From the NCBI GenBank assembly GCA_009693115.1, contig SHXW01000002.1, positions 62,001 through 126,000 on the forward strand: a stretch of DNA of 64,000 nucleotides, given 5' to 3'. A model generated the notes under the pieces. The model searched no databases. It was not told the DNA's origin and saw nothing but the letters and a program-made list of their open reading frames with translations. Source of the stretch: Dehalococcoidia bacterium. GTDB taxonomy: Bacteria > Chloroflexota > Dehalococcoidia > Lucifugimonadales > Lucifugimonadaceae. Every line of letters begins with the position of its first letter. The stretch's first letter is position 1. Below are positions 10,726-12,751 of the stretch, in pieces. The translations under genes were made by a program, and so were the position numbers.

Positions 10726-11904
10726 GTGACCAGGTCCCGCGTCCGAATTGCGAACGCTGACCATCTGGAGACTCCGTTGACCGCTAACGTCTACAAGACC
10801 ACCGCTGCGAAGCTCGCGCACGAGAACCTCCGCATTCCCGGCCCGGTGCCCCTGCCGGACGACATCCTGGAGGCGGTGGGTACGCAGATGATGAACCACC
10901 GCGGGCCGGAGTATGCCGACATGCTGGCCCGCATGACGGTGGACCTGAAGACCGTCTTCATGACAAAGGGTGATGCCTACTTCATCACCTCGTCCGGGAC
11001 GGGCGCCATGGAGACGGCCATCGTCAACACCCTTTCGCCGGGAGACAAGGTCCTGTCTCTGACGATCGGGTTCTTCGGTGACCGTTTCGCAGACATCGCC
11101 AAGGCCTACGGGGCGCAGGTCGAGAGCATGTCCTTCCCGTATGGGAAGCCTGTGGACCCCGACGCGCTCGGCAAGAAGCTGCGGGAGTCAAAAGGCGTCA
11201 AGGCGGTCATCCTCACGCACAACGAAAGCTCGACGGGCGTTTCCAACCCGCTGCAGGCCATCGCGCATGCCGTCCACGCCAACTCCGACGCGCTTGTGCT
11301 CGTGGACGCGGTATCAAGCGCAGCGGCCATGCCAATAGCTGTTGACGCGTGGGGTCTGGACGTCGTGGCAACTGCTGCGCAGAAGGCGTGGATAGCCCCG
11401 CCAGGCATCGCCATGGTGACGTTCAGCCAGAAGGCATGGAAGGCGCAGGAGACGGCGAAGATGCCGCGGTACTACTTCGACATAGTGCAGTACCGGGACT
11501 ATCTCAAGATTGGGCAGCCGCCGTTCACACCGTGCCTCCCGGCAATGTATGCGCTCGAAATCTCACTGCGGCGGATTGTGGAGGAGGGCATTGAAAACGT
11601 CTTCGCCCGCCACCACGCCATTGCAGACCGCACGCGCAACGGCGCGCTCAAATTGGGGCTGTCGCTCTTCCCGGACAGGCAGTTCGCATCGGACACGGTT
11701 ACGGCGATCAGGCTGCCGGAAGGGCTCGACGGCAAGGCGCTCGTGGCGAAGGTGCGTAAGGACTCCGGAATTGTGATCGGCGGCGGACAGGGACCGATGA
11801 CAGGCAAGATCGTCCGCATAGGCCACATGGGGTGGGTGGAGCCCGCGCACGTGGACGCCGCCCTGGATGCCGTGGGTAAGGCGATCAACGGGATGCGCCC
11901 GTAA
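10726..11904 (+). CDS. Class V PLP aminotransferase (alanine/serine--glyoxylate type)
   Basis: A 392-residue fold-type I enzyme of the class V family that includes alanine-glyoxylate and serine-glyoxylate aminotransferases. Visible landmarks are SSGTGAMETAI (PLP phosphate loop), HNESSTGV, VDAVSSAAAMP (PLP-binding aspartate) and AAQKAWIAPPG with the Schiff-base lysine. Transfer of an amino group between alanine or serine and glyoxylate is the best guess; aspartate or a phosphonate substrate is also possible. GTG at 10726 begins the open frame, but homology to the family only starts about 30 residues in, so TTG at 10777 is an alternative start. A short palindromic repeat (10691-10719) lies just upstream. 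Confidence 0.85.
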   Translation: MTRSRVRIANADHLETPLTANVYKTTAAKLAHENLRIPGPVPLPDDILEAVGTQMMNHRGPEYADMLARMTVDLKTVFMTKGDAYFITSSGTGAMETAIVNTLSPGDKVLSLTIGFFGDRFADIAKAYGAQVESMSFPYGKPVDPDALGKKLRESKGVKAVILTHNESSTGVSNPLQAIAHAVHANSDALVLVDAVSSAAAMPIAVDAWGLDVVATAAQKAWIAPPGIAMVTFSQKAWKAQETAKMPRYYFDIVQYRDYLKIGQPPFTPCLPAMYALEISLRRIVEEGIENVFARHHAIADRTRNGALKLGLSLFPDRQFASDTVTAIRLPEGLDGKALVAKVRKDSGIVIGGGQGPMTGKIVRIGHMGWVEPAHVDAALDAVGKAINGMRP

Positions 11905-12031: not shown

Positions 12032-12751
12032 TTGACCAGCGTCAGAAATAGAAAAACGGTATGGTCGGCCCTGTCGTTGCTGCTGGGGGTCGTGCTCTTG
12101 GCCGCGGCCTGCGGCAGCGACTCCAGACCGGGGCAGGTGTCTACTCCCCTGCCCGGCTTCCCAACGACGACTGTGCCCCCAGCTTCCCCGCAAGGCGCAA
12201 AAGCACCCTCGGCTGTGCCGACTTTTGACGCAACGTCCCCATTGCTGCCTGCTGCGACAGCCGCTGCGACGTCTTCAACGGTGGCAAAGGAGCTATCGTT
12301 TGGGCCGGGGCTGACAGACTTCACACTGCCGAATGCCAACGGCGACGCGAGCGTGAAACTGAGCAGCTACCTGGGCAAAAAGAATGTCGTGCTTGTCTTC
12401 TACCGGGCCTACTGGTGAAGCCACTGCAGAGCTCAGTTGGATGACTTGAGCAAGAGCTATGCGACGATCACCGGCCTGGATGCGGAGGTCGTGGCGGTGA
12501 GTGTCGACGACCTGTCCGGCGTGGCCGAACTGGTAAGGCAGTACGGACTCCCCTTCCCGGTGCTGTATACGGCGGGCAGCCCCGATGTGCCCAGGGCCTA
12601 CGGGGTGTGGGCGTTGCACGAGCCGGGGACAGCGGCTGCCAGCGTGTTTCTGATAGATAAGTCGGGCAAACTCCGCTGGAAATACATAAGCTCCGGCCTG
12701 TACGACCGCGCTAAGGCGAGCGAGATCATCGTGCAGTTGCGGAAGCTGTAA
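12032..12751 (+). CDS. Putative selenoprotein: peroxiredoxin/thioredoxin-fold lipoprotein with in-frame TGA (UxxC)
   Basis: Two open segments in the same frame are joined by a single TGA at 12416-12418. Reading it as selenocysteine gives FYRAYW-U-SHCRAQL, the place where AhpC/TSA-like proteins have their CxxC or peroxidatic cysteine (usually YWCPxCRxQ). Homology continues without a break on both sides: a thioredoxin fold with VVAVSVDD, the PFPVLYT region and VFLIDKSGKLRW. TTG at 12032 gives a 239-residue protein with a lipoprotein signal (LLLAAAC-like lipobox, Cys27) and a Pro/Ala/Ser linker, so the active site U129/C132 would face the cell exterior. The frame is open back to 11936. Role: thiol peroxidase or disulfide reductase in the envelope. 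The alternative is a nonsense pseudogene, which the lack of any other lesion argues against. Confidence 0.75.
12431..12451 (+). promoter_or_regulatory. Candidate bacterial SECIS hairpin
   Basis: The stem GCTCA/TGAGC starts 12 nt after the TGA at 12416-12418. It can be extended by GT/AC across a single bulged T, leaving a TGGATG apical loop. The loop begins about 19-20 nt from the TGA and has a G in its first two positions, matching published bacterial SECIS rules. A competing stem (12430-12434 with 12454-12458) exists, so folding should be computed. Confidence 0.5.

Follow-up and report, generated by a model that had tools for sequence, protein, structure and literature searches.

We conclude, on the basis of sequence, that positions 12032-12751 of the window (the whole stretch of Dehalococcoidia DNA that was analyzed, 64,000 nucleotides) are a selenoprotein gene in which the UGA at 12416 is predicted to be decoded as selenocysteine (Sec). 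Our best explanation, with a probability of about 0.85, is that the product is a selenolipoprotein with a SECIS element, a UxxC redox motif, a lipobox and a peroxiredoxin fold, and that it has an extracytoplasmic redox role. The features of the locus, in window coordinates, are as follows.

10726-11904, + strand: upstream aminotransferase-like gene, outside the selenoprotein gene; a conserved neighbor (six other genomes have a 63-82% identical gene adjoining their Sec gene)
12032-12751, + strand: selenolipoprotein gene; one frame with a single TGA, from a TTG start at 12032 (inferred) to a TAA stop at 12749-12751
12032-12112, + strand: predicted signal peptide and lipobox LLAAA-C27 (Cys codon 12110-12112), from the sequence, the lipobox pattern in 51/57 homologs, and Lgt
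12113-12289, + strand: Pro/Thr/Ala/Ser-rich linker, residues 28-86, from the translation; homologs have P/T-rich linkers, many of them much longer
12290-12748, + strand: AhpC/TSA domain with a predicted peroxiredoxin fold, from Pfam, AlphaFold2 and matches to peroxiredoxins in the PDB
12416-12427, + strand: UxxC redox motif, Sec129 (TGA 12416-12418) and Cys132 (12425-12427); all 106 distinct homologous domains have the TGA and the second Cys
12431-12451, + strand: putative SECIS hairpin, arms 12431-12438 and 12444-12451, loop GGAUG 12439-12443; conserved register and covariation in relatives

Conservation of the in-frame TGA

The TGA at 12416-12418 is the sole interruption of one continuous frame (12032-12751), with no frameshift, and homology runs across it, both as described in the original prediction. 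The read-through protein matches Pfam AhpC-TSA (PF00578) over residues 95-216 (8.5e-25; 87.5 bits compared to a gathering score of 26), with Sec at residue 129 in UxxC. There is no obvious Shine-Dalgarno sequence for the TTG start at 12032.

A scan of the whole collection with the window protein alone gave distant relatives only. Homologs were found by searching the read-through protein against related genomes (76 from the family of the window genome and 250 from its order). Among the matches listed above 64 bits in these genomes, all have an in-frame TGA. It is located at residue 129 in 57 of the 57 homologs first examined (including the window gene) and at the Sec column of every one of the 106 distinct homologous domains from the order, in which the second Cys of UxxC is also invariant. 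The pattern used to collect the 106 domains demanded U and C, and no domain above 100 bits was lost by that demand. Because identity to the window domain is 31-50%, with a maximum of ~50%, the TGA has been conserved over the long term. Cys at the Sec column was restricted to more distant homologs, which is the distribution that the original prediction anticipated, and no close relative had another sense codon there, with the exception of degenerate paralogs that lack the whole motif. Twelve genomes of genus g9 have kept an adjoining paralog without the UxxC redox motif (e.g., VFIPSTTSELDRTQL).

The genome from which the window comes (a 2.0-Mb draft, 95.6% completeness) has the machinery for Sec insertion that the original prediction called for: a tRNA-Sec with anticodon TCA (UCA), SelA, SelB and SelD. 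SelD itself contains Sec, in the active site ACAGUAGK. SelB scored above the curated cut-off in 208/247 genomes of the same order, so Sec use is a trait of the group.

The SECIS hairpin and the reading of UGA

A hairpin had been predicted 12 nt after the TGA, and the stem does begin at 12431. In the window, the stem consists of G12431-C12451, C12432-G12450, U12433-A12449, C12434-G12448, A12435-U12447, G12436-U12446, a U12437/C12445 mismatch and U12438-A12444. Numbered with the TGA as 1-3, the family hairpin has a stem of 18-23/29-34 and a five-base loop, and its register, 15-31 nt after the TGA, is fixed. The window copy differs from it in a U-A at 18-34, which is compensatory, in two additional outer pairs and in the one U/C mismatch. 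The expectation that folding would reveal a SECIS element was borne out by conservation and covariation in the family, but not by the window copy alone, which was not significant: 7% of synonymous recodings of the window fold as well, and 24% keep as many register pairs. Rfam had no match on the window. The significance of the window hairpin comes from its conservation in relatives and not from its own folding.

Across the family, 19-33 is almost always C-G and 20-32 almost always A-U. Pair 21-31 varies, being A-U in 43 of the 106 domains, G-C in 42, G-U in 18, U-U in 2 and A-C in 1, with 33 changes on the tree. A Gln codon (CAA/CAG) has its third base at column 21 and a Leu codon (UUG/CUG) its first base at column 31, so compensatory changes at this pair are silent in the protein. 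Codon use in the 3' arm was strongly skewed. The Glu codon was GAG in 77 cases and GAA in 0, and the Lys codon was AAG in 13 and AAA in 0; both pairs of codons are used near 50:50 elsewhere in the same domains. The Leu codon was UUG or CUG in 105/106 domains, compared to 48% elsewhere, and the residue at the loop-G codon was Val, Gly or Asp in 104/106, all with GNN codons. In 69 non-redundant sequences, 94.2% of cells were paired and the covariation score was above that of 500/500 shuffles; when the partner was slid along, pairing fell to 5-39%. Because the shuffles ignore relatedness, our case relies jointly on the slides, the number of changes on the tree and the codon bias. These comparisons indicate that the SECIS element is under RNA-level selection at the level of the family. 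Selection was also specific to position: at least five of the six pairs were present at 105/106 catalytic TGAs, compared to 2/27 terminal TGA stops. In four Cys homologs the stem was imperfect; one (L159) lacked pair 21-31 only, and in the three others the stem was more extensively broken.

The position-specific selection bears on two other readings of the TGA. The 27 terminal TGA codons demonstrate that TGA also ends homologous genes in the group, as would be expected if the TGA at 12416 were a genuine stop, whether through gene disruption, through a sequencing error or as the boundary of two ORFs, but the presence of the same TGA in all 106 domains despite their divergence, together with selection on the SECIS element, makes this reading extremely improbable. 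Alternatively, UGA might be read as Trp or Cys, through a change of code or near-cognate readthrough, which would likewise yield a full-length protein and would be compatible with Cys at this column in distant homologs. The use of TGA to end homologous genes in the same group, the position-specific SECIS selection and the presence of the Sec machinery all argue against it, and we consider its probability to be negligible. On the strength of TGA conservation and SECIS selection, we rejected a pseudogene, a sequencing error and a change of code. In the reading that we prefer, SelB and Sec-tRNA would decode the UGA at 12416 as Sec, directed by the hairpin at 12431-12451.

Predicted location, fold and chemistry

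The lipoprotein signal claimed for the protein was found, with VRNRK, a hydrophobic core and LLAAA-C27-GSD. The N-terminus is VRNRKTVWSALSLLLGVVLLAAA-C27-GSD, and ~60 Pro/Thr/Ala/Ser-rich residues follow up to the domain. Members of the class Dehalococcoidia have a single membrane, so the window protein would face outward. The assignment to this class agrees with another of its families (f42), with genomes of 1.4-2.1 Mb; the seven f42 genomes searched encode 19-52 reductive dehalogenases each, a hallmark of Dehalococcoidaceae. The lipobox Cys27, where lipidation is predicted, and the presence of Lgt in the window genome (156.7 bits) support surface anchoring via the P/T/A-rich linker. After export, the product would carry a lipid on Cys27, and this flexible linker would keep it outside the membrane.

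AlphaFold2, run on 46 aligned domains, gave a mean pLDDT of 95.5. The best matches in the PDB were peroxiredoxins (Prx4, Prx1 and AhpE; Z ~21, rmsd ~2 A over 145-147 residues), and the nearest solved proteins by sequence were BCP-type and AhpE peroxiredoxins, followed by ResA. The original prediction placed the TGA exactly at the catalytic Cys of AhpC/TSA-like proteins. This is correct for the N-terminal Cys of the ResA/TlpA-type CxxC, but in true peroxiredoxins the column corresponds to the Thr of TxxC, and it is Cys132 that aligns with the peroxidatic Cys. Of the peroxiredoxin PxxxTxxC motif and catalytic Arg, only the Cys is kept: the family has FYR and not FYP, and Sec is at the position of the Thr. 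The catalytic Arg column has Pro in 34 of the 46 domains and Ala in 9, including the window; the same counts (Pro 34/46, Ala 9/46 including the window) apply to the cis-Pro-like position before the FxID strand, where the ResA/TlpA type has a cis-Pro. The predicted fold suggests that the domain is a peroxiredoxin in its body but has a redox motif of the thioredoxin/ResA type.

The fold, with Prx4, Prx1 and AhpE as best matches, and the alignment of Cys132 with the peroxidatic Cys are consistent with a Sec-dependent peroxidase, in which hydroperoxides would be attacked by Sec129 or by Cys132, the latter at the peroxidatic position, and the other residue would resolve. This is less likely, in our view, given that the peroxiredoxin active-site Pro, Thr and Arg are replaced family-wide. 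Because these catalytic residues are replaced, we favor a Sec-dependent oxidoreductase of the thiol:disulfide type, working through a U-C bond. The proposed function derives from motif and fold: the peroxiredoxin-fold domain would bear a Sec-x-x-Cys redox center, and the Sec129 selenolate would most likely reduce an oxidized extracytoplasmic substrate, either a disulfide or, possibly, a peroxide. Sec129 would then form an intramolecular Se-S bond with Cys132, and a donor would re-reduce the protein. No DsbD_TM electron donor was found in the window genome (95.6%-complete draft).

Tandem and fused relatives and known selenoproteins

The six other genomes in which the Sec gene adjoins the same aminotransferase gene are of the same family as the window genome, and five of the six have also kept tyrS- and ribF-like genes. 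At this locus, one of them (G005) has three separate tandem Sec genes, and another (G008:C1:2060236-2062350; L078, L133) encodes a ~700-residue lipoprotein with three UxxC AhpC/TSA domains and no unread bases. Fusions with two Sec are present in G098 and in 8/8 genomes of genus g7.

Several other arrangements were observed. In the g7 fusion (eight loci), the Sec domains have the motifs FYRGxFUGxC and FFxxWWUxxC. In two-domain lipoproteins of genus g8 (L039, L043, L044), the N-terminal domain is of the Cys type (FFYGGAxCxxC) and the second is a Sec domain. Elsewhere in the phylum (L159, L162, L163), an N-terminal CxxC thioredoxin-like domain precedes the Cys-form domain in one protein. In the window genome itself, an NHLRC2-like thioredoxin protein (G000:C34:49279-49635, L139) has an in-frame TGA within DFWTYC-U-INC, with a hairpin downstream, and is probably another selenoprotein. 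A peroxiredoxin in the same genome (G000:C5:50774-51151, L135) has TGA at the peroxidatic position (TGGU) and a hairpin with the loop CGUGA.

UxxC Prx-like selenoproteins from marine metagenomes have been on record at least since the Sargasso Sea survey, in agreement with the original prediction, and Prx-like thiol:disulfide oxidoreductase selenoproteins (PF00578, UxxC/UxxU) are included in Table 1 of a 2026 review (PMC13188914). The Sargasso Sea and GOS proteins resemble the window family in having an AhpC/TSA domain and UxxC, with Sec first. The window family differs from them in its lipoprotein form, long P/T-rich linker, tandem arrays and two- and three-Sec fusions, although the GOS entries may include the same proteins.

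The lipoprotein form had been thought less documented. We recognized no matching paper, but a 'thioredoxin-like (seleno)lipoprotein' family, NF041057, is known; this family (Rcas_1661) has been listed as DsbG-like UxxC (PMC13188914). Rcas_1661 is similarly a thioredoxin-fold lipoprotein with a Sec form and UxxC, but the window protein scores 17.5 bits compared to the NF041057 cut-off of 190 and belongs to another family. A literature search for SAR202 and selenoprotein found no paper, and among the titles and abstract openings retrieved for selenoprotein with lipoprotein or lipobox, none was recognized as being of this kind.

No NCBIfam model reached its cut-off on the window protein. The best NCBIfam match for 46/46 domains was NF040769 (SelL and SelL-related redox proteins), for which the window protein scores 52.4 bits compared to a cut-off of 120; the SelL motif is UxxU, whereas that of the window is UxxC. 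AhpE and BCP-type peroxiredoxins are alike in fold and overall sequence, but their PxxxTxxC...R active site is not kept in the family. ResA and TlpA are extracytoplasmic members of the AhpC/TSA superfamily with CxxC at the same columns. In contrast, the window family has Sec for the first Cys, and the window genome yielded no DsbD_TM partner; the score against ResA (NF002854) is 44.8 bits, with a cut-off of 170.

Prx-like selenoproteins with UxxC were already known, as was one (seleno)lipoprotein family. What is new, as judged from the gene sequences, is a clade-wide, nearly Cys-free lipoprotein family that has expanded into tandem arrays and into fusions with two or three Sec per polypeptide. 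Three Sec per protein is not a record, because a small subset of selenoprotein families has 2-3 Sec (PMC13188914).

Where TGA is annotated only as a stop, each of these genes is split, and a surface redox family that is widespread in this lineage may be miscalled as fragments. We suggest, speculatively, that selenium might be a cell-surface theme in this Dehalococcoidia lineage, in which obligately Sec-dependent lipoproteins, multiplied by tandem duplication and by fusions that place two or three Sec domains in one polypeptide on P/T-rich stalks, would form a surface redox system (an electron relay or a scavenger) without counterpart among described selenoproteins. The family, nearly Cys-free across the order, is a natural test of the retention of Sec where Cys could serve, to which its single, tandem and multi-Sec fused forms add. 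With more than 100 aligned SECIS elements, selection at the RNA level and at the protein level can be separated.
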